NCBI RefSeq assembly: GCF_900101985.1
Contig: NZ_FNAR01000022.1
Coordinates: forward strand, 1-45,107
DNA from: Bhargavaea beijingensis
Lineage (GTDB): Bacteria; Bacillota; Bacilli; Bacillales_A; Planococcaceae
Length of the DNA stretch: 45,107 bases
Reading direction: 5' to 3'
Below, one piece after another: positions 1 to 45,107 of the stretch (within the stretch, counting starts at the first letter, position 1; every line of letters begins with the position of its first letter). The notes beneath the pieces were generated by a model. The model saw nothing but the letters and a program-made list of their open reading frames with translations, did not search any database and was not told where the DNA came from. Both the position numbers and the translations under genes were made by a program.

Positions 1-53
1 TCCCCTTGGGGGCGGGTGCTTTTTGGATCCGGGGATGTTGGCGGTGGTGTTGG

Positions 54-512
54 ATGGGTCGGGAGATTGCACTATAGGACGCGGAAATGCAATATGGGTC
101 GGGAGATTGCCGTATGGGTCGGGGGATTGCACTATGGGTCGGAAGATTGCACTATGGGACGCGGAAATGCAATATGGGGTGCGGAAATGCGATATGGGTC
201 GGAAGATTGCACTATGGGACGCGGAAATGCAATATGGGTCGGGAGATTGCCGTATGGGTTGGGGGATTGCACTATGGGTCGGGAGATTGCCGTATGGGTT
301 GGGGGATTGCACTATGGGTCGGGAAATTGCACTATGGGACGCGGAAATGCAATATGGGGCGCGGAAATGCAACATGGGTCGGGAAATGCACTATGGGACG
401 CGGAAATGCACTATGGGACGCGGAAATGCAACATGGGTCGGGAGATTGCACTATGGGACGCGGAAATGCAATATGGGGTGCGGAAATGCAACATGGGGCG
501 AGGAAATGCAAT
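54..512. repeat. Tandem array A, 23 units of 20 bp
   Basis: Twenty-three head-to-tail units run through the region, all exactly 20 bp apart except the unit starting at 374, which is 19 bp. Consensus is ATGGGWCGSGGARATTGCAMT-like with two interleaved subtypes: one carries TCGGGAGATTGC, the other ACGCGGAAATGC. Between 234 and 333 two subtypes alternate as a 40-bp dimer. Because 20 is not a multiple of 3 and no unit contains a stop in the plus direction, all three plus frames stay open for about 165 codons; this is a by-product of the repeat, not coding. A related array closes the window at 44951-45107. Positions 1-53 are G-rich and may be a decayed edge of the array. Confidence 0.95.
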
Positions 513-582
513 ATAACCACTACAGCTAAACGGTCCCAGTCGGACGCCGCCCCTCCGATGAATACCTTTTCGCCGCGTTGAC

Positions 583-605
583 CATCCTCCTGAAGAAGGA
601 GGATG
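583..605 (+). promoter_or_regulatory. Hairpin covering the sodC ribosome binding site
   Basis: CATCCTCC (583-590) is perfectly complementary to GGAGGATG (598-605), with a 7-nt loop. The right arm contains the whole GGAGG of the sodC ribosome binding site, so the SD would be hidden when the stem forms. Whether it forms in the transcript is inference. Confidence 0.5.
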
Positions 606-611
606 ATTGAA

Positions 612-1175
612 ATGAAGAAATGGATATACGCATCAGCAGCGACAGTTGCAGTGCTTGCCGGATGCGGCATGCAGACGGGCGAGGAAGAGGTAAAGATTCC
701 GGTCATGAGCGAGGGAGTCACCACCGCAGTAGAGTCGGACCTGATCAATACCGAAGGGGAGACGGTCGGAACCGTCCTCCTGACAGGAGACAAGCAGGGA
801 ACGGGCATCCGGATTACGGCGGAGGGGCTTGAACCCGGAACCAAGGCCATTCATGTGCACGAAAAGGGCGACTGCACGCCGCCCGACTTCAAGTCCGCGG
901 GGGCCCACTTGAACCCGGAACATAAACAGCATGGGTTTGAAAACCCGAAAGGCTTCCATGCCGGAGATCTGCCGAACATTGAAGTGGACGATGAGGGCAA
1001 GGTCGATCTCGAAACGGTTTCACAGTATATCTCCCTGAAGGAGGGCCATCCGGGCTACTTGCTGGATGAGGACGGCAGTGCGGTCGTCGTCCATGAAGGA
1101 CCGGATGACTACAAGACAGACCCGGCAGGAAATTCGGGTTCCCGCATCGCCTGCGCAGCATTCAACAAAAAATAA
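612..1175 (+). CDS. sodC: Cu/Zn superoxide dismutase lipoprotein
   Basis: A 187-residue protein of the SodC family, which dismutates superoxide outside the cytoplasmic membrane. A short signal peptide ends in a lipobox LAGC near residue 18, so it should be a membrane-anchored lipoprotein. The copper-site motif HVHEKGDC, followed by GAHLNP and a later HAGDLPNI, gives the expected His/Asp metal ligands; the C-terminal SRIACAAF carries the second Cys of the conserved disulfide. The ATG at 612 is preferred to the one at 603 because AAGGAGG (596-602) lies 9 nt upstream of 612 but touches 603. B. subtilis SodC-like YojM is a relative that lacks some copper ligands; here the first His pair is intact. 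Monocistronic, ended by the hairpin at 1183-1211. Confidence 0.9.
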   Translation: MKKWIYASAATVAVLAGCGMQTGEEEVKIPVMSEGVTTAVESDLINTEGETVGTVLLTGDKQGTGIRITAEGLEPGTKAIHVHEKGDCTPPDFKSAGAHLNPEHKQHGFENPKGFHAGDLPNIEVDDEGKVDLETVSQYISLKEGHPGYLLDEDGSAVVVHEGPDDYKTDPAGNSGSRIACAAFNKK

Positions 1176-1182
1176 CCAAGCA

Positions 1183-1211
1183 AAAACCGCACGCCGGCCG
1201 CGTGCGGTTTT
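1183..1211. terminator. Bidirectional terminator, sodC / CAP protein
   Basis: Perfect 11-bp arms AAAACCGCACG / CGTGCGGTTTT around a short GC loop, between two convergent genes, with A and T runs on the two sides. Confidence 0.85.
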
Positions 1212-1218
1212 CATATGC

Positions 1219-2358
1219 TCATTTAAACAGGAAGTTCTCCGTATAGTATGGCTGGTCTTCTCCATTGAAGGCGACACCGACGCCGAGCATGCGGAAGTCT
1301 TCGTTCAGGATGTTTTTACGGTGGCCGAGCGAGTTCATGAGCCCTTCATGGGCGAAGATGCTGCTCGGCTGGCCGTAGGCGAGGTTCTCTCCGGCGCCCC
1401 GGAACTGGATGCCGTCTTCCGCCATCCGGTCGAACGGCGATTGGCCCTGCTGGTTTTCATGGGCGAAGTAGTCATTCACCGCCATGTCCTCGCTGTGCTT
1501 GACCGCAGTGGCGGCAGTGCGCCCGTCCCAGTCGAGGACCCCATAGCCGTGCGCCACTCGCGCGGCGTTCGTCAGGTCGAACAGCTGGCGCTCGAACCCT
1601 TCCTTCAATTCGGGATCTGCGGCTCCGTAAAGGGCGCCGTGCGCCTGCTCGAGTTCCTTTTCGATGATTTGGACGGCGGTGACGGTATCGTTCCGGTGGA
1701 GATCATAAAAGACGGTGACATAACTGTTGTCGATCTCGAACACGTCGTACTCGCCGTTGCTTTGGATCAGAAAAGCACTGCGCCCTTTGACGATGCGGTC
1801 GAGCGGGCGCCCGTATTCCGCCCGGACGGAAGCTTTCCGGGAACCGTAGGCGATGCCGCTCGTGGAGGCGATGATGTCCTGGTTGGTGTACAGGCCATTC
1901 ACGCGGCCATCACCGTCAAATGACACCATCGCGAAATTGTGGTAGCCGTCATGGTAGGCGTGCCATTCGGTGCCGTATTCGTTCGTCGTGGAGCGGGCGG
2001 GTTCACCGAGCTCTGCCTGGACAAGCTCCCGGGGGTCCCCGATTCCGATATTGTGCACGGTGATCGGAACGGACTCCGGCCGCTCGAGCTCCGGCTTTTC
2101 AGCCTCCGCGCCGGAAGACTGGTGGGCACGCTCGTCCTTGACGGACTGCTCCAACTTCGCATAAAGCGAATTGGCGCCTTCATTCAGCTTGCCGATGGCC
2201 AGATCGACCGCTGGCTGCCCGCCGATGTCTGCAATCAGCTTGTCTGCCCGGTCAAGGAATGACAGATCGACGACGCGGGACAGCGGTTCTTCCCAGAGCG
2301 GGCGGGCAAGAAAGACCAGGACGGCAAAAAGAATCAGTCCGAACAACCGTCTCACCAT
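1219..2358 (-). CDS. CAP-domain (SCP/PR-1 type) secreted protein, YlbC-like
   Basis: A 379-residue protein with an N-terminal signal anchor (residues 5-20, hydrophobic). A middle region of about 130 residues resembles the CAP-associated N-terminal domain (IGDPRELVQAELGEP, repeated later as ASVRAEYGRP). The C-terminal CAP domain has the hallmark HSEDMAVNDYFAHENQQGQSPFDRM and GENLAYG, then HRKNILNEDFRMLGVGVA. The conserved His and Glu residues of the CAP cavity are present. B. subtilis YlbC has the same order. The substrate of these bacterial CAP proteins is not known. The ATG at 2358 lies 7 nt from AAAGGAGGTG; the in-frame TTG at 2364 is too close to the SD. Confidence 0.85.
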   Translation of the reverse strand: MVRRLFGLILFAVLVFLARPLWEEPLSRVVDLSFLDRADKLIADIGGQPAVDLAIGKLNEGANSLYAKLEQSVKDERAHQSSGAEAEKPELERPESVPITVHNIGIGDPRELVQAELGEPARSTTNEYGTEWHAYHDGYHNFAMVSFDGDGRVNGLYTNQDIIASTSGIAYGSRKASVRAEYGRPLDRIVKGRSAFLIQSNGEYDVFEIDNSYVTVFYDLHRNDTVTAVQIIEKELEQAHGALYGAADPELKEGFERQLFDLTNAARVAHGYGVLDWDGRTAATAVKHSEDMAVNDYFAHENQQGQSPFDRMAEDGIQFRGAGENLAYGQPSSIFAHEGLMNSLGHRKNILNEDFRMLGVGVAFNGEDQPYYTENFLFK

Positions 2359-2405
2359 GCACAATCACCTCCTTTATCTTTCCATTTTACCACCCGGACA
2401 TCCTG

Positions 2406-2417
2406 TTCATGCATGAA
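2406..2417. promoter_or_regulatory. 12-bp palindrome upstream of the CAP gene
   Basis: TTCATGCATGAA is a perfect palindrome about 50 nt upstream of the CAP start codon; a TAAAAT that could be a -10 lies between. A possible operator, function unknown. Confidence 0.3.
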
Positions 2418-2500
2418 GGCATAATAAATCCCGGGTGCCACAAAAAGTCTTTATGATAAGGACAGCAACCATGAAGAGGATGTTCCTTTCAAAAGAAAAC

Positions 2501-2522
2501 AAAAAGACCCGATCGGGGTCTT
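2501..2522 (-). terminator. Terminator of the DUF3298 gene
   Basis: On the minus strand AAGACCC / GGGTCTT arms are followed by TTTTTG. It lies just past the stop codon of the gene at 2539-3321. Confidence 0.75.
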
Positions 2523-2538
2523 GGAAAAAGGCGGACGG

Positions 2539-3321
2539 TCAAAGCCGTCCGGTATATTCTTCTTTCAGGAAATCGCGCACTTCATCCAGCGGGAGATCCG
2601 CCCGGACGACGCCTGCGGCTCCAACCGCGACTTCATATTCGTCGAAATAAATCGAGAGCCGGTCATTGCGGATTGCCCATTTCCAGGAGGTCGGATCGTT
2701 CAGCGCCATTGCAAGCAAGTCGTTGAAGAGTTTGTCTTTCAGCTGTTTCTGCTCCAGCAGGTGCTCTTTCACCATTTTCTGGAGAACCGGGCCGTCACGT
2801 TCGAGATCGAACAGGTCCGCCAGTTCAACGATTCGGCCCTCGGAAGGATCGATGTTAAACGGCTTGATCTTCATCGTGCCGTTTTCGCCGCCGGTGTACT
2901 GATACGACGTGTAGAGCAGGCTGTAGAGACTGCCGTGATGGGGCAGCTTTTCCGCTGTCAGCCTGAGTTGGGCCCGCTCGCCGTCTGCAAGCAGAGTTTT
3001 ATATTCATCGACACTGTCTTCAAAAAGGTCTTTCTGCTCGTCGATCCACTTGGTGATCGGCTTTTCTACTCCTTGATGATCCGCCGTCACCATATTGATG
3101 TCCATCGTATACCATTTTGTCTGTTCCGTAACCGTCTGAAGCTGAAGGCCGGGAGTTTCCGGAAGTTCCTTCGTTACGGCCGCGTCCGCGATAGCCGGGT
3201 TTTCGCCGATCCCATCCGGCTTACCGGTCTGCGAAAAGGCGATTCCAAGCATGGCGGTAAGGGCCAGCATGGCCGATAGGGTCCATGCTGGCCAGCCGGG
3301 CCGCTTCATTCGCGTTTTCAT
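2539..3321 (-). CDS. Membrane-anchored DUF4163/DUF3298 (RsiV/PdaC N-terminal type) protein
   Basis: A 260-residue protein with one N-terminal hydrophobic segment (about residues 12-30) and an extracellular domain of the DUF4163-DUF3298 type. It is clearly paralogous to the first 260 residues of the deacetylase at 7763-9205: both share the HQ-(V/A)-(E/N)-x-I-x-x-WID block, the NDPTSWKWAI / GDPDNWKWSI block and the FDEYEVAVGAAG / WDEYEIAAGAAG block. Here there is no deacetylase domain. In RsiV this domain pair binds lysozyme, and in PdaC it precedes the catalytic domain; what a stand-alone copy does is unknown. The start is not well fixed: AGAAGGG is about 13 nt from the ATG. It has its own terminator. 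Confidence 0.8.
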   Translation of the reverse strand: MKTRMKRPGWPAWTLSAMLALTAMLGIAFSQTGKPDGIGENPAIADAAVTKELPETPGLQLQTVTEQTKWYTMDINMVTADHQGVEKPITKWIDEQKDLFEDSVDEYKTLLADGERAQLRLTAEKLPHHGSLYSLLYTSYQYTGGENGTMKIKPFNIDPSEGRIVELADLFDLERDGPVLQKMVKEHLLEQKQLKDKLFNDLLAMALNDPTSWKWAIRNDRLSIYFDEYEVAVGAAGVVRADLPLDEVRDFLKEEYTGRL

Positions 3322-3543
3322 AAATGTAAATCAGCCCTTCTATTTTTTGGCCGCCTGTTTTTTATATGTTCGGGCGACCCCCCTAATAACTCGTACAGTA
3401 TACCATTGATTTGCGCCTGAAGGGAGGGGAAATGACAAAAGCATGCAAGGATGCGGGGTTTGTGAAAATATCTCGGATGGAAATGGGGTTCTTATCAACC
3501 TCCCGACCAACAATCAATTCAAGCGGAATACTTTTCGGAAAGA

Positions 3544-3573
3544 AAAGGCCTCCCCGCACTCAGGGAAGCCTTT
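3544..3573 (-). terminator. Terminator of the alcohol dehydrogenase gene
   Basis: Arms AAAGGCCTCCC and GGGAAGCCTTT pair with one mismatch; on the minus strand they are followed by TTTTCTTT. The 3322-3588 interval otherwise shows no convincing gene. Confidence 0.7.
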
Positions 3574-3588
3574 CAATGATAGGACCGC

Positions 3589-4734
3589 TTAAGGTTTCAG
3601 GATGACTTTTGTGCATTCATCCCCATGTTCATAGAACGTCTTGTACGCAATAGGCGCTTCCTCGAGGGGGACGATGTGGGAGATGATTTCGGTCGGGTCG
3701 AATTGTTTTTCGGTGATCATCCTGAACAGCTCCGGCATGAGGTGGGGCACGGGCGCCTGGCCGGACTTGATCGTGATGTTGCGCTCGAAAAATCGCCCGA
3801 GCGGGAAGGCGTTGTACCACAGGCCATAGACGCCGGTCAGCTGGACGGTGCCGAATCGCCGCACGGCGCGGTGGGCAGTACGGAGCGCGGTGAGCGAACC
3901 GCCGTGGAGTTTCATCTTGTGCTGCACCTTTTCCGGAACGGTCTTTTCTCCGTCCATTCCGACGCAGTCGATGACGACATCGGCGCCGCCGGATGTGAGT
4001 TCTTTGAGATAGTTGCCGGTCTCTTCCGGGTCTCGGTAGGTGACCGTTTCAGCCTTGTTCATTTCTCTCGCCTTGGCCAGCCGGTACGGCACATGATCAA
4101 CGGCGATCACCCGCTTGGCGCCCATCATCCAGGCGAACTTCTGGGTCATGAGGCCGATCGGTCCGCTGCCCAGGACAATGACCGTGTCGCCCTTTTTCAC
4201 GCCGGAGTGGAGCACGCTCCAATAGGCGGTCGGGAGAACATCCGACATGAAGAGGACCGCTTCATCAGGAACTTCGGCAGATTCCGGGATGACGAATGGC
4301 AGGAAGTTGCCGAACGGCACGCGCATGTACTCAGCCTGTCCGCCCGGATGGTTGCCGAACATTTCTGTATAGCCGAAGTAGCCGCCGAAGTCGGTGCCCG
4401 GCGTCGGGTTACTGTCAGGGTGTTCGCACTGGCTTTCCATGTCATGTGTGCAGTACCAGCATTCGCCGCAGGCAACGTTGAACGGGATGACGACCCGGTC
4501 GCCTTTTTTGACTTTCGTGACGGCGGGGCCGACTTCTTCGACGATGCCCATCGGTTCGTGGCCGATGACGTATCCGGGACGGGTCATGATGGAGCCTGCA
4601 TAAATGTGCAAGTCCGATCCGCAGATGGCGGTGGAGGTGATGCGGAGGATGATGTCGTCGTCTTTTTCGATTTTGGGGGCTTCCACGTTCTTGACCTGGA
4701 TGTCTTTTGTGCCTTGGAATGTCACTGCTCTCAT
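3589..4734 (-). CDS. Zinc-dependent alcohol dehydrogenase, formaldehyde-dehydrogenase-like (MDR family)
   Basis: A 381-residue medium-chain dehydrogenase. Catalytic zinc ligands sit in CGSDLH and GHEPMG; the structural-zinc cysteines are in the CGECWYC...C segment, and the cofactor fold shows GSGPIG. The insertion NPTPGTDFGGYFGYTEM and the long C-terminal half match the glutathione-independent formaldehyde dehydrogenase branch found in Bacillus. The substrate cannot be read from sequence; a short-chain alcohol or formaldehyde with NAD is likely. The start at 4734 has AAAGGAGG 8 nt upstream; the much longer upstream open frame lacks dehydrogenase similarity and runs into the divergent genes. 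It is transcribed alone. Confidence 0.88.
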   Translation of the reverse strand: MRAVTFQGTKDIQVKNVEAPKIEKDDDIILRITSTAICGSDLHIYAGSIMTRPGYVIGHEPMGIVEEVGPAVTKVKKGDRVVIPFNVACGECWYCTHDMESQCEHPDSNPTPGTDFGGYFGYTEMFGNHPGGQAEYMRVPFGNFLPFVIPESAEVPDEAVLFMSDVLPTAYWSVLHSGVKKGDTVIVLGSGPIGLMTQKFAWMMGAKRVIAVDHVPYRLAKAREMNKAETVTYRDPEETGNYLKELTSGGADVVIDCVGMDGEKTVPEKVQHKMKLHGGSLTALRTAHRAVRRFGTVQLTGVYGLWYNAFPLGRFFERNITIKSGQAPVPHLMPELFRMITEKQFDPTEIISHIVPLEEAPIAYKTFYEHGDECTKVILKP

Positions 4735-4771
4735 TTGTCGAACGCCTCCTTTGGGGATGTCTCCCTTAATA

Positions 4772-4795
4772 GTTTCCGCTTTCCGGTCCGGGTAA
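4772..4795 (+). promoter_or_regulatory. Weak sigma-B-like promoter candidate
   Basis: GTTTCC, 12 nt, GGGTAA resembles the sigma-B consensus GTTTAA / GGGTAT (4 of 6 and 5 of 6). It faces the small membrane protein and pentapeptide genes. A TATACT further down could instead be a sigma-A -10, so this is tentative. Confidence 0.25.
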
Positions 4796-4878
4796 ACGCC
4801 GGGGGGTGCGAAGGAGCTGGCGGACAGGTATACTTGGAACATGAAAACCCGCAAATTGCGGGCCTGGGAGGAAAGCGC

Positions 4879-4977
4879 ATGATTTTCGGAATGGACAGTG
4901 TCCCGATGTGGTTTTACGTTCTCGCAATCTGCGTGGTGATTCTGTTTGTCCTCTTCGCCGAGTGGTGGACGAGGTGA
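4879..4977 (+). CDS. Small single-span membrane protein (32 aa)
   Basis: A 32-residue ORF: a short N-terminus, one strongly hydrophobic helix (roughly residues 10-26) and the ending EWWTR. GGGAGG lies 8 nt upstream of the ATG. Its last codons supply the GAGGTGA that serves as ribosome binding site of the next gene, 5 nt downstream, so the two are probably translationally coupled. I do not recognise a family. It is too short for standard gene callers and could be overlooked. Confidence 0.6.
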   Translation: MIFGMDSVPMWFYVLAICVVILFVLFAEWWTR

Positions 4978-4982
4978 ACGAT

Positions 4983-5612: not shown

Positions 5613-5661
5613 GCAGCGAGAATGCTGGATAGAACAGAAAGAGACAAGGAAGGTGTTTAGC

Positions 5662-6129: not shown

Positions 6130-6230
6130 TGGATGGCAAAAAGTTCGTCATTGTATTCCTCACAATCTTCATTCTCGTCATCCTCGTCGTCCTGCTTAGT
6201 TTCTGGGTGTTCTACCAGGTGGATCAGTGA
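6129..6230 (+). CDS. Small single-span membrane protein (33 aa)
   Basis: A 33-residue ORF, start overlapping the upstream stop as TAATG, and its own TGA overlapping the GTG of the HIT gene. The residues form a short charged N-terminus (MDGKK), an aliphatic helix of about 22 residues and the tail FYQVDQ. The double overlap argues for real, coupled translation. Function unknown; it is the second such tiny membrane protein within 1.3 kb. Confidence 0.6.
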   Translation: MDGKKFVIVFLTIFILVILVVLLSFWVFYQVDQ

Positions 6231-11877: not shown

Positions 11878-11990
11878 AGATTATTTTTCTCCAATAGTTT
11901 ACATGAAAGGAAGAGGGTTTGTCGTGCGGGAAGGGCAGGGGGATTGAAAAGCGGATGGAGGCATATCGTAACCGTGACAAGGAGGGTTCT

Positions 11991-12062
11991 GATCTTTCGT
12001 GAGGTGTTATTGATCATTCACGAGGGGTTATTGATCTTTCGCGCGGTGATGGTGATCTTTCG
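11991..12062. repeat. Array B, four units with a 21-bp period
   Basis: The 9-bp core GATCTTTCG (one copy GATCATTCA) starts at 11991, 12012, 12033 and 12054, exactly 21 bp apart, between the MMPL and carD genes. Flanks between cores are only partly conserved (GAGG, GGTTATT). The 11878-12124 interval holds nothing else but the carD terminator. Confidence 0.75.
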
Positions 12063-12081
12063 CAGGATTCCCCGCTCCCGC

Positions 12082-12111
12082 AAAAAAACGCACCCCGTTT
12101 CCGGGATGCGT
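12082..12111 (-). terminator. Terminator of the CarD-family gene
   Basis: On the minus strand ACGCATCCCG / CGGGGTGCGT arms followed by seven T. Confidence 0.85.
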
Positions 12112-12124
12112 CTATGGATCATGA

Positions 12125-12622
12125 TTATTGTGGGGTGGCCGCCAGGATGCGCTCTTCCACCTGGTTTGCCACATCTTCGACCGAGATGCCGAGCGCCATC
12201 GAAAGCTCCCTGAACAAAATCGTCTGGACATGGTTCAGGAGCTTGCGGTCCTGGTCATAGATTTTCTGATCGGTGTTGAGTTTTTTGTCCATGAGTGCGC
12301 CGGTGACTTCCGCGATCTTCTGGCGGTCGCCCGACTGTACAAGGCTCTGGTAAGCACGCGCCCGCTGTTTCGGGTTTTCCACCCAGTCGATGCCCCGGCT
12401 TCCGAACACGTCCATCAGTTCCTCGGCTTCCTTGCGGTTCATTGTCCGCATGAGCCGCTTTTTCTTGCCGTCCACCGGCGTGCTGATTTTCAGCGTCTGT
12501 TCTCCAATGGGATGGAGTACATAGTAAAGTCGGGTCTCGCCAAACAGATCCTTCTTGCAAATGTCATCGATTTTGCACAGTCCGTGCTCGGAATAGATGA
12601 CCACATCACCGATCTCAAACAT
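12125..12622 (-). CDS. CarD/CdnL-family RNA-polymerase-binding regulator
   Basis: 165 residues. The first 60 or so form the CarD/TRCF RNA-polymerase-interaction domain (MFEIGDVVIYSEHGLCKI, then TRLYYVLHP); the rest is helical with the ERAYQSLVQSGD-like RARAYQSLVQSGDRQKIAEV block typical of CdnL. Such proteins bind the beta subunit and stabilise open complexes at promoters. The ATG at 12622 has GAGGAGG 8 nt upstream; the next upstream ATG sits only 2 nt from it. A near-consensus promoter lies at 12667-12695, inside the palindromic region shared with the divergent marR gene, so the MarR protein may control it. Confidence 0.85.
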   Translation of the reverse strand: MFEIGDVVIYSEHGLCKIDDICKKDLFGETRLYYVLHPIGEQTLKISTPVDGKKKRLMRTMNRKEAEELMDVFGSRGIDWVENPKQRARAYQSLVQSGDRQKIAEVTGALMDKKLNTDQKIYDQDRKLLNHVQTILFRELSMALGISVEDVANQVEERILAATPQ

Positions 12623-13483: not shown

Positions 13484-13489
13484 AACCAA

Positions 13490-13521
13490 AAAACGCCGTC
13501 TCCCGGAGGAGACGGCGTTTT
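13490..13521. terminator. Bidirectional terminator
   Basis: Perfect 14-bp arms (AAAACGCCGTCTCC and its complement) around a 4-nt loop, between convergent genes. Confidence 0.9.
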
Positions 13522-13538
13522 AGTAGTCGTTAAATGGA

Positions 13539-13739
13539 TTACATTTTTACGACGTTCGCAGCTTGAAGACCGCGTGGGCCTTCTTCGATTTCGAATTCTA
13601 CTTCTTGACCTTCATCAAGGGACTTGAACCCGTCTTGCTGGATAGCGGAGAAGTGTACGAATACATCGTCGCCATCTTCGCGCTCGATGAAACCGAAGCC
13701 CTTTTCTGCGTTAAACCATTTTACTTTACCTTGTTCCAT
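13539..13739 (-). CDS. Cold-shock protein, CspB/CspD type
   Basis: 66 residues, the normal length of the family: a five-stranded OB fold with RNP1 KGFGFIE and RNP2 VFVHF, and the aromatic and basic residues that bind single-stranded nucleic acid. These proteins act as RNA chaperones. The ATG at 13739 follows AAGGAGGA; the longer frame upstream is leader. A good promoter at 13863-13891 implies an untranslated leader of about 115 nt, as expected for a cold-shock mRNA. Confidence 0.95.
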
Positions 13740-13862
13740 GTTTGTTTCCTCCTTGCGTGCCACCTGGCACACGTGTGTTACTATCCTTGCTCAAGTCTTG
13801 ATGTGTCAGGATGAAGTGAATTCCACCCGAACGTCATTGCCGAACAAAAATAATTCTTCTAC

Positions 13863-13891
13863 ATCATAACAGCCCACCCAGATCATTGCAA
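13863..13891 (-). promoter_or_regulatory. Promoter of the cold-shock gene
   Basis: On the minus strand TTGCAA (13891-13886), 17 nt, TATGAT (13868-13863), start point near 13856. The leader contains a small hairpin GTGCCA / TGGCAC just before the ribosome binding site. Confidence 0.7.
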
Positions 13892-13912
13892 GTGAAATGC
13901 CGAAGAGTTTTG

Positions 13913-17347: not shown

Positions 17348-17402
17348 GATATTTCCCGGCATCTTAATGATATTTCCCGGACAGTTGGTGATTTTTCGCC
17401 GG
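17348..17402. repeat. Array C, three units with a 21-bp period
   Basis: GATATTTCCCGG starts at 17348 and 17369, and the related GATTTTTCGCCGG at 17390, exactly 21 bp apart, in the divergent gtrA / ABC transporter region. Confidence 0.7.
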
Positions 17403-21887: not shown

Positions 21888-21914
21888 CAATTTTGAATGT
21901 GGGGAGATACGGTT

Positions 21915-22075
21915 TCGTCATTCGGGCCGGGAGTCTCGTCATTCGTGGCTGCAGTCTCGTCATTCAAGCCTGCGGTTTCGCCATTCGTCACCCGCCCCTT
22001 CGCGAATGACGAAACTGCGGAGCGGAATGACGAAACCGGAAAGCCGAATGACGAAATCAAACCGGTGAATGACGA
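21915..22075. repeat. Array D, inverted 4+4 repeat with a 21-bp period
   Basis: TCGTCATTC starts at 21915, 21936, 21957 and 21978 (last copy TCGCCATTC); its complement GAATGACGA ends at 22012, 22033, 22054 and 22075. All spacings are 21 bp, and the two halves are exactly symmetric about 21993-21997. Inner flanks also pair (GCGGTTTCGCCATTCG against GCAGTTTCGTCATTCG). It lies between the fumC terminator and the PCYCGC gene; the rest of 21848-22186 has no gene. Confidence 0.85.
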
Positions 22076-22186
22076 AACCGGATTGCCAAAAATTCCGGAA
22101 CGTGGGCTGTCCGGCTGTTTTCACTTTTTGCTCACAGCATCCATCTGCAGATTCCGGTATAGTGGTACGCAAAGGAGTGATTCCAT

Positions 22187-22892: not shown

Positions 22893-23552
22893 ATGAACAA
22901 CCAACCATTTTTTGCTTCGTGGAGCGGAGGCAAGGATTCGGCGCTTGCGCTGCACCGGGCGATTCAAAACGGCGGGAGGCCGGTGCGGCTGCTGACGATG
23001 TTCGACGGGGAGGGGGACCGGTCGAAATCGCACGCGGTCAGCGAGACGGTCATCCGTGCACAAGCGGGGGCGATGGGGGTGCCACTCGTGATCCGGCGCG
23101 CCGGCTGGACGGATTATAAGGAACAGTTCCTTTCGGGGCTGGATGAGATGAAAGAGGCGGGGATCCAAACAGGCGTATTCGGTGACATCGACCTGGAGGA
23201 TCACCGCAAGTGGGTGGCCGATACCTGTGCGGAGAAGGGAATCGAAGCCGTGCATCCGCTCTGGGGCATGGGCCGCACGGAAGTGGTCCGTTCCTTCATC
23301 GCCGCCGGCTTCCGGGCGACGGTCGTTGTCGGTCATGATGAGCGGTTTCCGGCCGGATGGGTCGGACGGGCATTCGACAATGAACTGATCGGCGACATGG
23401 AAAGCCGCGGCATCGATCCGTGCGGGGAAGCGGGCGAGTTCCATACGCTCGTGACGGACGGTCCTCTTTTTAAAGAACCGCTCCGTCTCAACCAGTCCGA
23501 TTTTCTGAAGCGGGATGGCTATTCATTTGCCCGAATGGAGCTTGAGAAATGA
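22893..23552 (+). CDS. Dph6-related ATP pyrophosphatase (diphthine-ammonia-ligase-like)
   Basis: 219 residues. The PP-loop SWSGGKDSALALHRA at the N-terminus and the later EFHTLVTDGPLF block identify the Dph6/MJ0570-type adenine-nucleotide alpha hydrolase family. In eukaryotes Dph6 amidates diphthine; bacteria have no diphthamide, so the bacterial substrate is unknown. The ATG at 22893 has AAGGGGG 7 nt upstream. Its stop overlaps the start of the TPR gene (ATGA). Confidence 0.85.
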   Translation: MNNQPFFASWSGGKDSALALHRAIQNGGRPVRLLTMFDGEGDRSKSHAVSETVIRAQAGAMGVPLVIRRAGWTDYKEQFLSGLDEMKEAGIQTGVFGDIDLEDHRKWVADTCAEKGIEAVHPLWGMGRTEVVRSFIAAGFRATVVVGHDERFPAGWVGRAFDNELIGDMESRGIDPCGEAGEFHTLVTDGPLFKEPLRLNQSDFLKRDGYSFARMELEK

Positions 23553-24214: not shown

Positions 24215-24580
24215 TCAGATGACCGTATAATCTTTCGGACGAACCGTCCGCTGCGTCCGGATGAATGTCATCGCGTCCAACAGTTCGTCTTGTGACAACC
24301 GCCGGCCGTCCAGGCATAGCTCGTATTTATCGAGCATGTCGCCGGCTGCCTCCTTGATTTCGACGGAGACGGGTTCTCGGGCCAACAAATAGTCGGTGGT
24401 CACTTGGAAGTAGTCTGCAAGGGCGATCAGCTGGGGATAGGTCGGCAGTTTCTTGTCGAGTTCGAACGTCCAGATCAGGCTTTTGGCAACGCCGATCGTC
24501 TCTGCCAACTGCTCGGGGGACACGACATGCTGAATCCGGAGGGCCTTTAGACGCTCGCCGAATGTGAGGGATTCGTTCAA
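24215..24580 (-). CDS. XRE-family helix-turn-helix regulator
   Basis: 121 residues. The HTH covers about residues 8-62: FGERLKALRIQHVVSPEQLAETIGVAKSLIWTFELDKKLPTYPQLIALADYFQVTTDYLL. The remaining 55 residues are charged and helical. The TTG at 24580 has AAAGGTG 6 nt upstream and gives the usual family N-terminus; the longer frame runs back into the promoter. A TTGTCG-17-TATATG promoter candidate at about 24636-24664 overlaps the terminator of the nucleoside phosphorylase gene. Targets unknown. Confidence 0.8.
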   Translation of the reverse strand: MNESLTFGERLKALRIQHVVSPEQLAETIGVAKSLIWTFELDKKLPTYPQLIALADYFQVTTDYLLAREPVSVEIKEAAGDMLDKYELCLDGRRLSQDELLDAMTFIRTQRTVRPKDYTVI

Positions 24581-31589: not shown

Positions 31590-31699
31590 GTCATGGGTCC
31601 GTCAAAAAAGGGGCTATTTCCGGGTGCTTAGTCATTCGGGCCTCTTCATTATCCTGCTGTGGGCGGGGCACCATCCGACATTTCTGTCATTGCCGGTCG

Positions 31700-31713
31700 A
31701 TTTCCCGGGAAAT
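31700..31713. promoter_or_regulatory. 14-bp palindrome in the ydaT/putP interval
   Basis: ATTTCCCGGGAAAT is a perfect palindrome. A CATTTC lies 20 bp upstream of its GATTTC, so it may be a decayed repeat array of the kind seen at 17348. A hairpin GGAGCG / CGCTCC follows at about 31719-31733. Nothing else in 31538-31842 besides promoters. Confidence 0.35.
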
Positions 31714-35084: not shown

Positions 35085-35141
35085 CGGGAATTGACGAAAA
35101 AGTTGGGTCCAAATGACTAACCTTGCCGGGAAATATCGAAA
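35085..35141. repeat. Possible decayed 21-bp-period array
   Basis: Read on the minus strand it contains GATATTTCCCGGC, identical to the array C core, then GTCATTTGGACCC and TTCGTCAATTCCCG at roughly 21-22 bp spacing. Weak. Confidence 0.3.
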
Positions 35142-38937: not shown

Positions 38938-38988
38938 TAGGGATTCGTCATTGTTTTCTCGTCAAGCGGCCCTGTTAATGAATATAAA

Positions 38989-39017
38989 AGAGCCTTCCCG
39001 CAAATGGGGAAGGCTCT
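38989..39017 (-). terminator. Terminator of binding protein 2
   Basis: AGAGCCTTCCC / GGGAAGGCTCT arms; on the minus strand followed by TTTTAT. Confidence 0.85.
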
Positions 39018-39024
39018 ATTCAGA

Positions 39025-40653
39025 TTACTCGGACAGGGTGACGTTTTTCAGTTGATAGATACCGGAAGTATCAATATCAAAGCCTTTGACGTTGTTTGCG
39101 AGTCCTGTCAGGTATTCTTGGTGGTGAATATAGATCATTGGCGCATCTTCGATCAGATGTTCCTGAACTTTGTTGTAGATATCCTGACGGGCTTCAGGAT
39201 CGGTTTCCTGGCGGCCTTCGTCAAGGAGCTTATCGACTTCAGGGTTTTCGTAGAACGAGCGGTTGCCCGGGTCCCCCTTCTGGGACGAGTGGAAGAGGGC
39301 ATACATGCCGTAGTCCGCGTCGCCTGTCGGGTTGGACCAGCCGAGGATGAACATGTCGTGCTCACCTGCAGCTGTCTTTTCGAGGTACGTGCCGAATTCC
39401 ATCTGTTCGATCTTGACGTCGATGCCGACTTCCTTCAGTTCCTGCTGGAGAAGGACCGCAGAGTCAACACGCTGCGGGTTGTCGTTTGTCCAGATCGTCG
39501 TGGAGAAACCATCAGCGTAGCCTGCTTCTTCAAGCAGCTTTTTCGCTTTTTCAACGTTGTTCTCAAGCGGCTTGGCGTCTTCATTGTAGCCGAAGATGCC
39601 AGGCGCAAGAGGGCCTTTCGCCGGGATGCCGAATCCTTCGTAAACGCCGGAGATAATGTCTTCCTTGTTTACGAGCATCGAGATCGCCTGGCGGACGCGG
39701 ACGTCGTTGAACGGTTCTTTTTCCGTGTTGAAGCCGATATACGAGAGGCTCGAAGATGGCTTCTGGTGGACCGTGCCGCTGCCGGAGTCGTTGATCTGCT
39801 GGACTTCGTTGGGCTGGACCGGGTCGATGATGTGCGCGTTGCCCGTTTCAAGCTCGGCCACGCGTGTTGCTGCTTCAGGGACAACCTTGAAGGTGACCGA
39901 GTCGACCTTGGCCGGTTCGTTCCAGTAGTCTTCGTTTTTCACAACCTTGATCTCGGAGCCCGGTTTCCAGCTTTCAAACTTGAAGTAGCCGGTTCCCACA
40001 GGAGTCTCGGAGATGACGGAGCCCGGCTCTTCGCCGTTTTCCATCGCCGCATAGTCTTCTTCGATGGACTTAGGGCTGATGATGCTGCCGCCGTTATGGG
40101 ACAGGTGGGCGAGAAGCGGTGCAAATGGGTATGCTGTCTTGATCTGGACTGTTTGGTCATCGACAACATCCACGCTCTCGATCATCTCGAAAAGGAAGTA
40201 GCGAGGAGAAGCGACTTTCGGGTCGCGAACTCGATCGAGGCTCTTCTTGACTGCCTCAGCGTTGAATTCTTCGCCGTCATGGAATTTGACGCCTTCCTGG
40301 AGCTTGAACTCCCAAGTCGTGTCGTCGATTGCGTTCCATTCCGTCGCAAGGCCAGGTTCGATCTCATTGTTGTCATTTCGGTTGACAAGTGTTTCAAAGA
40401 TGTTTGCCTGGATGTTGGAGGACGGAACATCGTTTGATCCAGCCGGGTCAAGCGATGAAGCATCGGAAAGGACTGCGAGAATGAGGTCGCCGCCTTCTTC
40501 GCCGCCTTCAGTTGTTCCATCTTCGCCCTGGCTGCCGTCTTTGCTTCCGCTGTCGGATGCGTTATCATTTCCGCCGCCGGCACAAGCCGCGAGGAACATG
40601 GAGACGACCAGCATCAGGACCAAGAGCAACAATGAGCTGCGCTTATTCTTCAT
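39025..40653 (-). CDS. Family-5 peptide ABC transporter substrate-binding lipoprotein 2
   Basis: 542 residues with lipobox LAAC, then an Asn/Ser/Gly/Glu-rich linker of about 40 residues and the family 5 domain. The two paralogues match throughout, for instance both end in YQL(K)-(D/N)-VTLSE. The ATG at 40653 has AGGGGGAG upstream; the longer frame would read back through the promoter at 40714-40742. It diverges from the permease operon, so it is the likely principal receptor; the two copies may differ in peptide preference. Confidence 0.92.
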   Translation of the reverse strand: MKNKRSSLLLLVLMLVVSMFLAACAGGGNDNASDSGSKDGSQGEDGTTEGGEEGGDLILAVLSDASSLDPAGSNDVPSSNIQANIFETLVNRNDNNEIEPGLATEWNAIDDTTWEFKLQEGVKFHDGEEFNAEAVKKSLDRVRDPKVASPRYFLFEMIESVDVVDDQTVQIKTAYPFAPLLAHLSHNGGSIISPKSIEEDYAAMENGEEPGSVISETPVGTGYFKFESWKPGSEIKVVKNEDYWNEPAKVDSVTFKVVPEAATRVAELETGNAHIIDPVQPNEVQQINDSGSGTVHQKPSSSLSYIGFNTEKEPFNDVRVRQAISMLVNKEDIISGVYEGFGIPAKGPLAPGIFGYNEDAKPLENNVEKAKKLLEEAGYADGFSTTIWTNDNPQRVDSAVLLQQELKEVGIDVKIEQMEFGTYLEKTAAGEHDMFILGWSNPTGDADYGMYALFHSSQKGDPGNRSFYENPEVDKLLDEGRQETDPEARQDIYNKVQEHLIEDAPMIYIHHQEYLTGLANNVKGFDIDTSGIYQLKNVTLSE

Positions 40654-40700
40654 GCAAATTCTCCCCCTATTTTGTTTTTTGATATTGCGCAATCGACCGC

Positions 40701-40715
40701 AATATTCAGAAAGAA
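40701..40715. promoter_or_regulatory. CodY-like box at binding protein 2 promoter
   Basis: AATATTCAGAAAGAA, within the dyad ATATTC-AGAAA-GAATAT, matches the CodY consensus at 11 of 15 positions and overlaps the start point. Confidence 0.5.
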
Positions 40716-40742
40716 TATACCATACCAAATAGTCGGTGACAA
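40714..40742 (-). promoter_or_regulatory. Promoter of binding protein 2
   Basis: On the minus strand TTGTCA (40742-40737), 17 nt, TATATT (40719-40714). The rest of 40654-40973 is AT-rich; I could not identify the plus-strand promoter with confidence. A small CGGCA / TGCCG hairpin lies at about 40936-40951 in the leader of the permease operon. Confidence 0.75.
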
Positions 40743-40973
40743 TAGCCGTTCTTTGAAATCGGCTCAAGGTTGGTATAAATGTAGAGAGCCTTTCGCGATT
40801 CAACCCGGTAGTGTCGAAAAGAGAATTTGAAAGTATCGAAAATTGTATCATTTTTGTATTTTTCATTTTTAAATATTGTATGTCGAATTTGCACTATTCA
40901 TGGTAAACTATCGATTACACATATTGAGAAAAAGGCGGCACTTAACTGCCGTTATGGGGAAAGAGGGATTACT

Positions 40974-41867
40974 ATGTCTGAGCAAACAGCCAAAGCCACT
41001 ACAAGTGAAAAGGCTTACAATCCTCGCCTCGAGCTTTACAAGGGCTTTTGGAGACGGTTCAAAAAGAACAAGTCGGCCCTTGTAGGCGGGATTATTGTGC
41101 TGTTTTTCATCTTGTTGGCCATCTTCGGGCCGATGCTGGTGAATACCAACCCGAACGCCACGGACATCGCCAATAAGCTCCAGCCCCCGTCCGGGGAGCA
41201 CTGGTTCGGCACTGACAACTACGGGCGGGACATTTTCGCGAGGATTGTCCACGGCACAAAACTTACGCTCGTCGTAGGCTTTGTTTCCGTTATGATCGGC
41301 GGAATCATCGGTGTCCTGTTCGGAATCGTTTCCGGCTACTACGGCGGTAAGGTGGATACGATCATCATGCGCCTGATGGATATCCTGCTCGCCTTCCCGG
41401 GGATTCTCCTTGCGCTCGCAATCGTGAGCGTGCTCGGCGGCAGCCTCCAGAACATGATTATCGCGATCGGGATTTTCTCGGTTCCGACCTTTGCGCGGAT
41501 TGTTCGCGGATCGACACTGTCCGTCAGGAAACTGGAATACATCGACGCCATGCGGGCGCTTGGTGCATCTGATTTCCGGATTATCTTCAAGCATATTCTT
41601 CCGAACGTCCTGTCCCCGATCATCGTCCAGGCGACACTCCGGATTGCGACCGCAGTCCTGACGGCGAGCGGCCTGTCCTTCCTCGGGCTCGGCGCCCAGC
41701 CGCCGACTCCGGAATGGGGCGCGATGCTGTCGGCCGGACGGTCGTATATGGCGGAGTCGCCGCACATGATTCTGATTCCGGGACTGGCCATCGTCCTCGT
41801 CGTTCTTGCATTCAACATCTTCGGCGACGGACTGCGCGATGCGCTTGATCCGAAGGCGAACAAATAA
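40974..41867 (+). CDS. Peptide ABC transporter permease, OppC/DppC type
   Basis: 297 residues: an OppC N-terminal segment (RRFKKNKSALVGGIIVLFFILLAIFGP) with the first helix, then five more helices. The GTDNYGRDIFARIVHG block and the EAA loop MRALGASDFRIIFKHILPNVLSPIIV, which contacts the ATPases, are intact. The ATG at 40974 has GAGGG 7 nt upstream. First gene of a four-gene operon; the usual order places the B permease first, so the order C-B is unusual. Confidence 0.93.
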   Translation: MSEQTAKATTSEKAYNPRLELYKGFWRRFKKNKSALVGGIIVLFFILLAIFGPMLVNTNPNATDIANKLQPPSGEHWFGTDNYGRDIFARIVHGTKLTLVVGFVSVMIGGIIGVLFGIVSGYYGGKVDTIIMRLMDILLAFPGILLALAIVSVLGGSLQNMIIAIGIFSVPTFARIVRGSTLSVRKLEYIDAMRALGASDFRIIFKHILPNVLSPIIVQATLRIATAVLTASGLSFLGLGAQPPTPEWGAMLSAGRSYMAESPHMILIPGLAIVLVVLAFNIFGDGLRDALDPKANK

Positions 41868-41882
41868 GGAGGGAGAAGCGAA

Positions 41883-42824
41883 ATGCTCAAATACATCATC
41901 CGGCGGGTCCTTCAGACCATCCCGGTGCTTATCGGTGTCTCCATTCTCGTCTTCTCCCTGATGCACCTGATCCCGGGCAACCCTGCCCAGATCATTGCGG
42001 GAGAAGGTGCTTCGGAGCAGACAGTCAGGCAGATCGAGGAGCGCCTCGGCCTGAATGACCCGATCCATATCCAATACTTCAACTATATGAGCGGCGTCCT
42101 CCAGGGCGACCTCGGCAATTCCGTCCGGAGCGGCCGCGCTGTTTCCGACGAGATCGCAACACGCTTCTGGGTCACGGTGGAGCTGTCCTTCTATGCCACC
42201 GTCCTCGCCGTCTTCCTCGGACTGATGGCGGGGATCATCTCGGCGGTCCGCCGCTATACGCTGGCGGACACCGCCATCATGATCGTGGCGCTGTTCGGAT
42301 TGTCCATGCCGAACTTCTGGCTCGGCCTTGTCCTTATCGACTGGTTTGCCATCGGCGGGGATTGGCTGCCGGAGTGGGCAAAACTTCGTCCTTCGGGATG
42401 GGGAGACTCCTGGCGGCAAGTCATCCTGCCGGTCATCACGCTCGGAACAGGCGGCGCGGCGATCATCGCCCGCATGACCCGGTCTTCGATGCTTGAAGTC
42501 ATCAACCAGGATTACATCCGGACGGCCCGGGCAAAAGGGCTCACCGACCGCATCGTCACTTACCGGCACGCGCTCAAGAATGCGCTCATCCCGGTCGTGA
42601 CGGTCGTCGGGCTTGAATTCGGCGGCTTCCTCGGAGGCGCTGTCCTGACAGAGACGATCTTTGCCATCAACGGCATGGGCCGGCTGACAGTCCAGGCCAT
42701 CACCCAGCGGGACTTCCCGATTGTCCAGGGTGCCGTGCTGGTCCTCTCCGTCCTGTTCGTTTTCGTTAACCTGATCGTCGATATTTCATATAAGCTGCTC
42801 AACAAGCGGATCGACCTGAACTGA
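41883..42824 (+). CDS. Peptide ABC transporter permease, OppB/DppB type
   Basis: 313 residues, six helices. The start MLKYIIRRVLQTIPVLIGVSILVFSLMHLIPGNPA is typical of the B subunit; the RLGLNDPIHIQYFNY and the EAA loop TARAKGLTDRIVTYRHALKNALIPVVT are present. It pairs with the C permease to form the channel. It begins 15 nt after the previous gene with GGAGGGAG upstream of its ATG. Confidence 0.93.
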   Translation: MLKYIIRRVLQTIPVLIGVSILVFSLMHLIPGNPAQIIAGEGASEQTVRQIEERLGLNDPIHIQYFNYMSGVLQGDLGNSVRSGRAVSDEIATRFWVTVELSFYATVLAVFLGLMAGIISAVRRYTLADTAIMIVALFGLSMPNFWLGLVLIDWFAIGGDWLPEWAKLRPSGWGDSWRQVILPVITLGTGGAAIIARMTRSSMLEVINQDYIRTARAKGLTDRIVTYRHALKNALIPVVTVVGLEFGGFLGGAVLTETIFAINGMGRLTVQAITQRDFPIVQGAVLVLSVLFVFVNLIVDISYKLLNKRIDLN

Positions 42825-42859
42825 TCGGTCCCGGCCAACGGCCCAAGGAGGAAAGATCA

Positions 42860-43885
42860 TTGGAAGAAACGATTTTGGATGTGCGCGGCCTGCGCACCTC
42901 TTTCTTCACGGACGAGGGAGAAGTCAAAGCCGTCGATGGCGTGAGCTTCTCCGTCCCGAAAGGTAAAACATTAGGAATCGTAGGCGAGTCGGGATCCGGC
43001 AAGAGCATCACCTCTCTGTCGATCCTCCGGCTTCTTGCGGAAAACGGCAAGGTGGTCGACGGCGAGATCCGGTATAAAGGCGAGAATATCCTGGATTTCT
43101 CGGAAAAGAAGATGCGAAGCCTCCGGGGGAACAAGATCTCGATGATCTTCCAGGAGCCGATGACCTCGCTGAACCCGGTCTTCACGGTCGGCCAGCAGAT
43201 TTCAGAATCACTTACCACCCACCAGGGAATGAACAAAAAGCAGGCGATGGCCAAATCCGTCGACTTGCTGAAGCTGGTCGGCATCCCGTCTCCGGAAAAG
43301 CGCGTGACCCAATATCCTTATGAACTGTCAGGCGGTATGCGCCAGCGTGTCATGATTGCGATGGCTTTGGCCTGCAATCCGGAAATCCTTGTCGCGGACG
43401 AGCCGACAACCGCGCTTGACGTAACGATCCAGGCACAGATACTTGGCCTGATCAAAGATCTTCAGAACCGCCTCGGCATGTCTGTGATTCTTATCACGCA
43501 TGATCTTGGCGTCGTCGCGGAAACTTGTGATTATGTCGCTGTCATGTACGCGGGACAGGTTGTCGAATACAGCGATGTGCGGACACTGTTCCGCAAGCCG
43601 CGCCATCCGTATACGGTCGGGCTGCTCAAATCGCTGCCGCGTCCTGATGCCGACCAGGAAAAACTGGTCCCGATCCACGGCATGGTGCCGTCGCCGTTTA
43701 ACATGCCGAAGGGCTGCCGGTTTGCTCCGCGCTGCCCGGCGGCGACCGATCTTTGCCGCGAAAAACTGCCGGATCTGTTTGATGACGGAGAAGGCAACCA
43801 GGTACGCTGCTGGATCTATGATGAAGAATGGCCGGGTCCGAAGGAGGTGGATGTCTTTGGAGAAAAGAGAATTGCTCAAGGTTGA
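42860..43885 (+). CDS. Peptide ABC transporter ATPase, OppD/DppD type
   Basis: 341 residues. Walker A GESGSGKS, signature LSGGMRQR, Walker [14 protein letters not shown] and the switch His in THDLGV are present. The C-terminal oligopeptide HPY-type extension has the [20 protein letters not shown] cysteines (cluster-like Cys pattern typical of D/F subunits). TTG start with AAGGAGG about 9 nt upstream. It overlaps the next gene by 35 bp. Confidence 0.93.
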
Positions 43886-44888
43886 TGGGCTGAAGCAGCA
43901 CTTCCCGATCAAGGGCGGCTTCTTCGGCCGCACGGTCAACCATGTCAAAGCGGTCGATGATATCAGCTTCACTGTGTATGAAGGGGAAACCGTCAGCATC
44001 GTCGGTGAATCCGGGTGCGGAAAATCCACAACCGGGCGCGCGATCCTCAGGCTTGAGGAACCGTCAGACGGAAAGGTGTACTTCGAAGGCACCGACCTCG
44101 CTTCCTTGTCGAAGTCGGAAATGCGGAAATACCGGAAGGATCTCCAGATTATCTTCCAGGACCCGTACGCCTCGATCAACCCGCGCCAGTCGATTTCGGA
44201 TGTCCTGAATGAAGCGATGGAAATCCAGAATGTGCTTCCGAGGAAAGAGCGCCGCAAGCGGATCATCGAACTGCTGGAAACGGTCGGATTGAACGGCAGT
44301 CAGGCTGACCGCTATCCGCATGAATTTTCGGGTGGCCAGCGCCAGCGGATCGGCATCGCCCGCGCGCTGTCGGTGAACCCGAAGCTCATCATCTGCGACG
44401 AAGCCGTATCGGCGCTCGACGTCTCCATCCAGGCCCAGGTGTTGAATCTGCTTGAAGAGTTGCAGGATGAGTACGGACTCACCTATCTGTTCATTTCCCA
44501 TGACCTCGGTGTGGTCCGCCACATCTCGGACCGTGTGATCGTCATGTATCTTGGGAAGATTGTGGAGATCGGAGACAAAGTATCGATCTTCGACAGCCCA
44601 AAACACCCGTACACGAAGGCGCTCCTGTCAGCGATTCCCGTTCCGGATCCGGATCGGGAGCGGGAACACGTCGTTCTCCGCGGCGATGTGCCTTCGCCGA
44701 TTGACCCGCCATCGGGTTGCCGCTTCCACACGCGCTGCCCGTTCGCGCAGGAAAAGTGCCGGGTCGACGTGCCGGAACTTGTCACGCACGATGGCATGAA
44801 GCAAGGCCACGAAGCCGCCTGCCACTTCGTCGAAGAAATCGAAAGCGGCCAGCTTAAACCGAACTACATGGAAAAAGCGGCTTTTTAA
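43851..44888 (+). CDS. Peptide ABC transporter ATPase, OppF/DppF type
   Basis: 345 residues. Walker A GESGCGKST, signature FSGGQRQR, Walker B LIICDEAVSALDVSIQAQVLNL and THD-type switch SHDLGV are intact; the DEA in place of DEP in the Walker B region is common in F subunits. The C-terminal part has the same Cys-rich GCRFHTRCPFAQEKC extension as the D subunit. The ATG at 43851 is only 3 nt from GGAGG; the TTG at 43857 is 9 nt from it and may be the real start. Terminator follows. Confidence 0.92.
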   Translation: MSLEKRELLKVDGLKQHFPIKGGFFGRTVNHVKAVDDISFTVYEGETVSIVGESGCGKSTTGRAILRLEEPSDGKVYFEGTDLASLSKSEMRKYRKDLQIIFQDPYASINPRQSISDVLNEAMEIQNVLPRKERRKRIIELLETVGLNGSQADRYPHEFSGGQRQRIGIARALSVNPKLIICDEAVSALDVSIQAQVLNLLEELQDEYGLTYLFISHDLGVVRHISDRVIVMYLGKIVEIGDKVSIFDSPKHPYTKALLSAIPVPDPDREREHVVLRGDVPSPIDPPSGCRFHTRCPFAQEKCRVDVPELVTHDGMKQGHEAACHFVEEIESGQLKPNYMEKAAF

Positions 44889-44906
44889 TTAATATAGAAG
44901 GAATTC

Positions 44907-44936
44907 AAACCCGTTGCCGGAAAGGCAGCGGGTTTT
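44907..44936 (+). terminator. Terminator of the peptide importer operon
   Basis: AAACCCGTTGCC / GGCAGCGGGTTT arms with a G-U pair, then TTTTCC. Confidence 0.85.
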
Positions 44937-44950
44937 CCGATTGGAATTGC

Positions 44951-45107
44951 TTACGGAGCGGATTTGCCATATGGGTTGCGGATTTGCAGTATGGGGCGCG
45001 GGTTTGCCGTATGGGATGCGGATTTGCAGTATGGGGCGCGGGTTTGCAGTATGGGATGCGGGTTTGCCGTATGGGTTGCGGGTTTGCCGTATGGGTTGCG
45101 GATTTGC
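44951..45107. repeat. Tandem array E, 20-bp units running off the window end
   Basis: Eight units start at 44951, 44971, 44991, 45011, 45031, 45051, 45071 and 45091 (the last cut by the window end). The consensus ATGGGNYGCGGRTTTGCMGT is related to array A (ATGGGN, then CGSGG, then TGCNNT at the same positions). Confidence 0.93.

Follow-up and report, generated by a model that had tools for sequence, protein, structure and literature searches.

The window analysed here is the complete contig C26 (NZ_FNAR01000022.1; 45,107 bp) of Bhargavaea beijingensis, a species of the family Planococcaceae, whose genome (2.99 Mb in 43 contigs) carries dispersed intergenic arrays that match, to our knowledge, no known bacterial repeat. 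In these arrays a core of about 12 bp is preserved from unit to unit and recurs head to tail at exact 21-bp steps, the remaining 9 bp or so of each unit drifts, and the arrays are placed mostly at the 3' ends of genes with no regard to the direction of transcription. We infer that they are cooperative protein-binding arrays which may form a boundary at gene ends, a reading to which we give about an even chance of being correct.

Five arrays (A to E) had been pointed out in the window by a sequence-only reading, which treated them as one family with a common 20/21-bp period and related cores, and the phenomenon was observed to extend well beyond them. A lag scan (40 or more matches per 63-bp window, lags 13–30) was applied to the window and to a further 400 kb from elsewhere in the genome (C33:1-320000 and C41:150001-230000, chosen for their matches to type I, the core type of array D and the commonest one in this genome). 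It returned 31 regions at lag 21, five at lag 20, one at lag 30 and none at any other lag, and within intergenic gaps alone there were 32–35 lag-21 regions, depending upon the threshold, and at most three for every other lag. As these contigs were chosen for type I matches, the sampled array densities (22.5 per 100 kb in C41 and 4.4 in C33) are biased high, that of C41 the most. Over the whole genome, 102 adjacent pairs of type I cores were found at up to two mismatches and none of the reversed pattern. The excess at lags 20–21 is thus present in the sampled genome and clustering of the core motifs did not find the arrays to be unrelated, so that the sequence-only reading is not refuted on either count.

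The common period of that reading, however, merged two classes, one of 21 bp (B, C, and D) and another of 20 bp (A and E). The 20-bp arrays are long, homogeneous over the whole unit, and show higher-order periods of 40 and 60 bp in the output of Tandem Repeats Finder (TRF). Arrays A and E are related to each other (72–76% identity over the matched parts), and further relatives are found terminally in C6 and C32, on either end of C30, where C12 begins, within C38, and in C11; the copy of array E in C6 is no more than 300 bp away from a terminus of that contig. Because their copies and relatives sit mostly at contig ends, the 20-bp arrays are assembly breakpoints here, and this class accounts for the positions of breaks in short-read assemblies of this genome. 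As a class, A and E are distinct, satellite-like and prone to slippage, and the remainder of this work concerns mainly the 21-bp class.

The anatomy of the 21-bp class was worked out for type I, which has the consensus YRRTYTCGTCATTCR based upon 315 units from our samples and from loci of other strains. Each of 11 successive positions carries 1.4–2.0 bits of information, three positions before the core and one after it carry 0.5–0.9 bits, and the other six at most 0.2, the core figures being inflated by the pre-selection of cores at no more than two mismatches. On the same strand, successive cores start 21 bp apart in 229 pairs and the next commonest distance accounts for three pairs; the units are non-palindromic direct repeats, with cores that are AT-richer than the genome (55% G+C) and phased at two helix turns. 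Type I arrays, including array D, also have a second, inverted arm, a feature missing from the sequence-only reading, and such multi-unit facing arms are restricted to this type among the 103 arrays described below. The gap between facing 11-mers is 17 bp (15 bp between 12-mers) in 36 of 40 cases, whereas diverging pairs show six different gaps. The same layout, with differing spacers, is seen again in other strains at orthologous loci. Between the B. beijingensis genome and three loci fetched by type I matches (L095, L033, and L035), 9 of 242 core positions (3.7%) and 47 of 112 spacer positions (42%) differ. Only one of 92 core deviations is matched by a compensating change in the opposite arm, and the mirrored spacers of the two arms match at 158 of 684 positions (23%). 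Neighbouring spacers match at 3.39 of 8 positions as compared to 2.67 for random pairs, which indicates some gain of units, and some neighbouring units are recent duplicates; otherwise, arrays of one type have little in common besides the core.

To extend these observations to other types, 114 arrays were refined, 103 of which had a score of at least 8 (94 from four Bhargavaea genomes, four from G007, and five from G001). By a crude clustering (single linkage at 80% over 9 bases or more), the 103 arrays from these six genomes comprise about 29 core types. The claim that all arrays form one family with related cores was therefore half right, as there are many core types but most of them share one half: the pattern YTCR (YGAR on the other strand) is present in 18 of the 29 types. 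It ranks first among patterns of that form, the runner-up RAGY, which overlaps it, being found in 14 types, and in 200 column shuffles YTCR was seen in a mean of 3.5 and a maximum of 9 types. In eight samples, AYTCR recurred three times at lag 21 in 128 matches, as against a total of four for the other lags from 16 to 26; the reversed motif gave 11 matches at lag 21, because other letters of the core are also periodic. Within the window, arrays B and C represent one type (TGATnTTTCsCG) and array D a separate one. A WYTCR end is found in B, D, and most other 21-bp types, so that what is shared is an end and not the whole core, and array C, which ends in TTTCC, is without it.

The positions of the arrays relative to genes were determined using gene calls and terminators produced by simple scripts, and gene starts are consequently rough. 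The 94 arrays from the Bhargavaea samples occupy 78 gaps (45 tandem, 26 convergent, and 7 divergent), and not one of these arrays falls within a called gene. Relative to a background of 452 gaps of at least 150 bp, array gaps included (281 tandem, 63 convergent, and 108 divergent), divergent gaps are depleted (Fisher test, odds ratio 0.31, p 0.003) and convergent gaps enriched (odds ratio 3.1, p 0.0001). Within tandem gaps the array is closer to the upstream 3' end in 36 of 45 cases. A terminator stands between the stop codon and the array on 51 of 97 gene-end sides, a figure that drops to 2 of 97 once the sequence preceding the array has been shuffled; for gene ends generally, one was found within 110 bp in 382 of 1,252. 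When arrays outside type I in tandem gaps were oriented by YTCR, 17 pointed with transcription, 16 against it and 13 were unassigned, and of the type I arms in such gaps 4 pointed with and 6 against it. As the direction of transcription is ignored and core deviations are not compensated between arms, it is the DNA and not an RNA that carries the signal.

The 21-bp arrays are found in all four of the sampled Bhargavaea genomes. When 37 of 63 matches were required, lag-21 regions numbered 35 in 445 kb of our genome, 24 in 400 kb of B. ginsengi (G003:C7), 29 in 220 kb of the distant genome G086 (two of these being masked N runs), and 12 in 200 kb of G067. Outside the genus, there were four in 220 kb of G007 and seven in 240 kb of G001 (one coding-like). 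Other lags gave at most six regions, and the higher of these counts were for lag 20 or for multiples of 3, as in coding DNA. Among 18 other Planococcaceae genomes, sampled at 4–40 kb each, lag-21 regions were detected only in these two. When 20 kb was scanned from each of 20 genomes belonging to other families of the class, a total of four lag-21 regions were found, three of which looked like coding sequence by eye; a stretch with 21-bp periodicity and ATTCGC / AATCGTATC cores (L196, 16669-16774), from another family, may be a member of the same class outside Planococcaceae. Type I itself is present in six of the eight genomes of the genus searched, ours included, and in none of 143 genomes across 18 other genera of the family, while the type TGTACTTTC forms 39 pairs in G003, 1–7 in four congeners and none in our genome. 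A dispersed element consisting of GTTTCCATAATATGACTTCGGTAGAATAAAT and a few 21-bp units was noted in G001, of another genus (C1 sample at 21985, 24624, 58133, 122995, and 162693), and it is a possible small mobile or copied relative.

A search for the exact type I pair led to 43 stretches, of which 25 were from Bhargavaea and 18 from non-Bhargavaea metagenome-assembled genomes (MAGs), mostly of Planctomycetes and Verrucomicrobia. An exchange of type I with bacteria of the Planctomycetes–Verrucomicrobia–Chlamydiae group was rejected, and the MAG pairs are read as probable convergence, because they belong to GTCATTC-rich stretches of another kind. These GTCATTCG-rich intergenic stretches, with GAATGACGAA repeats of about 7 bp, were seen at loci L076, L077, L079, L082–L084, L089–L092, L094, L096, L099, L101, L109, and L114 of Planctomycetes/Verrucomicrobia-type MAGs, and in L077, L091, L094, L101, L109, and L114 they seem to overlap the beginning of a reading frame which, judged by eye, resembles a sulfatase gene.

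A first impression that the arrays keep their places came from loci fetched by type I matches and was given up, since an unselected mapping shows fast turnover. Of 21 comparable pairs of orthologous array gaps, an array was present in both members in two, one or two cores were left in five, and none in 14 (8 further pairs had flanks that were not adjacent). The 14 pairs between our genome and B. ginsengi were divided 2, 5, and 7 among these outcomes, and the seven involving G086 were 0, 0, and 7. Of the two pairs that retained an array, one kept its type and the other changed it. At C33:300585, for example, our genome has ATCGTAACnTTC, whereas B. ginsengi has TGYGTAACACTC and TCCCGCCACTC at the same gene end. 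Arrays also shrink: that at C33:278623 has five units in our genome, one in B. ginsengi, five in CC-171006, and six in DSE10. Five tandem modules occur in our genome at C41:58932-59393. In G086:C2, two arrays about 1.1 kb apart (sample positions 23266-23409 and 24365-24508) are identical over the whole 143 bp and represent a recent local duplication.

Because pairing of the arms is out, coding is unlikely, the direction of transcription is irrelevant and the helical phase is exact, the candidates that remain are proteins binding double-stranded DNA on one face. The 21-bp arrays would then be multi-site targets, mostly of four or five sites per arm, upon which sequence-specific proteins would sit side by side along one face of the helix. 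Each core type would be recognised separately: in most types the YTCR half would provide a common contact, while the contact made with the other half would vary. The facing of type I arms across a 15-bp centre implies a symmetric nucleoprotein complex. A bound array could halt read-through transcription or confine supercoils between neighbouring genes, and such a boundary is the likeliest role because the arrays are located at the 3' ends of genes and around half of them lie past a recognisable terminator. Of the explanations offered by the sequence-only reading, a DNA-binding protein that nucleates on phased sites is the one that best suits the 21-bp class, in view of the exact steps, the kept core, and the lack of both an orientation rule and compensation, although no binder was found. 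A more far-reaching version, in which a fast-evolving set of readers, fixed on YTCR but rapidly changing in its contact with the other half, coats arrays at gene 3' ends genome-wide as boundaries, and in which arrays and readers would pursue each other fast enough for sister species to carry different codes, even where the gene end is the same, we regard as unlikely.

Several observations weigh against cooperative binding with a boundary role. Besides the missing binder, about 29 types would require many readers. Our genome has only three LytTR domains, the number also found in G001 and G010, and an all-against-all comparison of 1,252 called proteins from the four sampled genomes, with the leading clusters judged by eye, revealed no multi-copy family of likely DNA binders in the approximately 15% of the genome that was clustered. 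Eleven of the 29 types, including CGCGCATAGA, CTGTAnGTTAAG, and GATAAAGATAACG, lack YTCR, a terminator is found only beyond the array on 12 of 97 sides and on neither side of it on 34, and the fast turnover is odd for an important boundary. The figures for core conservation were obtained at loci that type I matches had picked out. Lastly, one pair of arrays is 83.6% alike over 140 bp, and in 35 elements faint common letters are present in the spacer of the unit adjoining the type I centre, both of which indicate that copying contributes. As a separate observation, the largest cluster of small proteins consists of about nine proteins of 136 aa in the sampled part of our genome, one of them at C33:24463-24903, and has five members in B. 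ginsengi.

The fast turnover and the signs of copying also bear on an alternative in which the arrays are dispersed selfish or neutral repeats resembling bacterial interspersed mosaic elements (BIMEs), copied by a core-recognising enzyme and tolerated at promoter-free gene ends without any host function. This is possible, although we think it somewhat unlikely. The rapid gain and loss of arrays, the closely alike pair, the tandem modules, the faint spacer letters, and the species-specific abundance of types such as TGTACTTTC are all in its favor, and tolerance would likewise lead to the avoidance of divergent gaps. However, most arrays of the same type share the core and little else, their 21-bp steps stay exact, and PF01797, the transposase associated with repetitive extragenic palindromes (REPs), was detected in none of six Bhargavaea genomes as against 5 of 14 control genomes; upon the same basis, REP/BIME elements with a REP-associated tyrosine transposase (RAYT) were rejected. 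That the arrays are pure slippage satellites, with cores in common through shared descent alone, is decidedly improbable. Expansion of a short unit by slippage, which the sequence-only reading also proposed, suits the 20-bp class and some gain of 21-bp units with identical spacers, but it copies core and spacer together, whereas the 21-bp spacers are saturated and near random with cores kept across loci and species, and it would not single out lag 21 or a 15-bp centre. A purely structural role, in which phased AT-richer cores cause the DNA to bend or provide a seat for a general nucleoid protein, with no reader specific to the sequence, accords with the two-turn phasing in a genome of 55% G+C; it is improbable, as it is the letters that are conserved at 11 positions and not the composition.

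Of the readings involving RNA, that of transcribed arrays acting at the 3' ends of mRNAs as hairpins, attenuators, or sponges for proteins would account for the placement and for the complementary type I arms. It is highly improbable in view of the single compensated change among 92 (on which count an RNA hairpin or a cruciform was rejected), the poor match of mirrored spacers, the independence of orientation from transcription and the terminators that precede the arrays on 51 of 97 sides. The constant YGARW adjoining a variable stretch gave rise to the idea of a target-adjacent motif and seed, but RNA-guided targets of the TnpB/TldR type were also rejected, as PF07282 was found in 0 of 6 Bhargavaea genomes and in 6 of 14 control genomes. 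Coding of heptapeptides (21 bp being seven codons) was considered as well: open frames averaged 3.45 versus 3.06 in spacer-shuffled controls and stop triplets in spacers numbered 103 versus 141, figures that favour coding. This possibility was nevertheless rejected, since the protection of any frame in type I does not exceed 1.9 standard deviations when column composition is kept, and since every codon position of the core is fixed.

Known systems resemble the arrays in part. Plasmid iterons, located at a replication origin, are direct repeats of about 20–22 bp in which one part is conserved and another varies; as the arrays occupy many chromosomal gene-end sites, dozens of them, and are of many types, they are unlikely to be iterons. 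BIMEs are placed at gene ends, and REPs are palindromes, whereas the array cores are non-palindromic and their units follow each other head to tail every 21 bp. REP/BIME elements are likewise dispersed, intergenic, and multi-copy, with several types per genome and a short shared motif beside a variable part (PMC2817692). Operators of the LytTR type (AgrA, RcoM, and CoxC) also consist of short direct repeats about two helical turns apart, a feature that the 229 type I pairs share; the spacing is 18–21 bp for CoxC, and the canonical pair consists of 9-bp repeats 10–13 bp apart (PMC11347149). They comprise two or three repeats at one promoter, whereas the arrays mostly have four or five, lie at gene 3' ends (only 7 of 78 gaps being divergent) and are of many types, and with three LytTR domains for about 29 types a LytTR regulon was rejected. 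BldC, which binds cooperatively and head to tail on direct repeats that vary in number, provides a solved precedent, but the BldC sites described are at promoters and contain shorter AT-rich repeats (PMC5859096), and BldC serves here as a physical model only. No description of such arrays was found in the full text of open PubMed Central (PMC) papers, and novelty is claimed no wider than this. As nothing of the kind was seen in those papers and each of the known families tested fails a defining feature, the array element is categorically new, while the proposed kind of binding has precedents.

The arrays of the window are listed in Table 1. All five fall between called genes, as had been claimed, and A, B, D, and E were borne out by TRF and the lag scan. 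Array C, which is absent from the TRF output and from the lag-scan list, is weak: it has two exact copies of GATATTTCCCGG (at 17348 and 17369) and a diverged third at 17390. Array B sits beyond the terminator (about 12083-12113, read by eye) of a minus-strand gene at 12125-12622. Two further stretches that had been taken for decayed copies proved otherwise. That at 31679-31713 contains instead a perfect palindrome, ATTTCCCGGGAAAT (31700-31713), which occurs at 10 genomic positions, against none for the reversed control, and which we take to resemble a Noc-binding site; the other, at 35085-35141, contains one exact core of the array C type (35126-35137, minus strand) and no array. The sole Rfam match at gathering score in the window is a cspA thermoregulator (13489-13897, minus strand).

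Table 1. Arrays identified in the 45,107-bp window and the evidence for each
Feature	Position	Strand	Description	Evidence
Array A	54..497	.	20-bp class, about 22 units, 60-bp higher-order period, contig start	TRF; 54-171 = last 118 bp of C33, 100%
Array B	11990..12064	+	21-bp class, 4 units, core TGATCTTTCGCG	TRF, lag scan
Array C	17348..17401	+	21-bp class, 3 units, type of B, divergent gap, weak	core matches, eye
Array D, whole	21912-22078		period 21; 4 forward units, then 4 inverted	
Array D, forward arm	21912..21987	+	4 units TTTCGTCATTCR, type I	
Array D, centre	21988..22002	.	15 bp between facing cores	
Array D, inverted arm	22003..22078	-	4 units CGAATGACGAAA	
Array E	44957..45107	.	20-bp class, 7.5 units up to contig end	TRF; = C6:25370-25520, 100%

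If cooperative binding at gene ends is the correct reading, then gene ends in these bacteria would carry a dispersed, sequence-coded, and helically phased element, the reader of which could be isolated in one experiment. The presence of one fixed and one fast-changing half within the core also raises the question of what drives the changes of code in whole arrays, which is testable across close strains.

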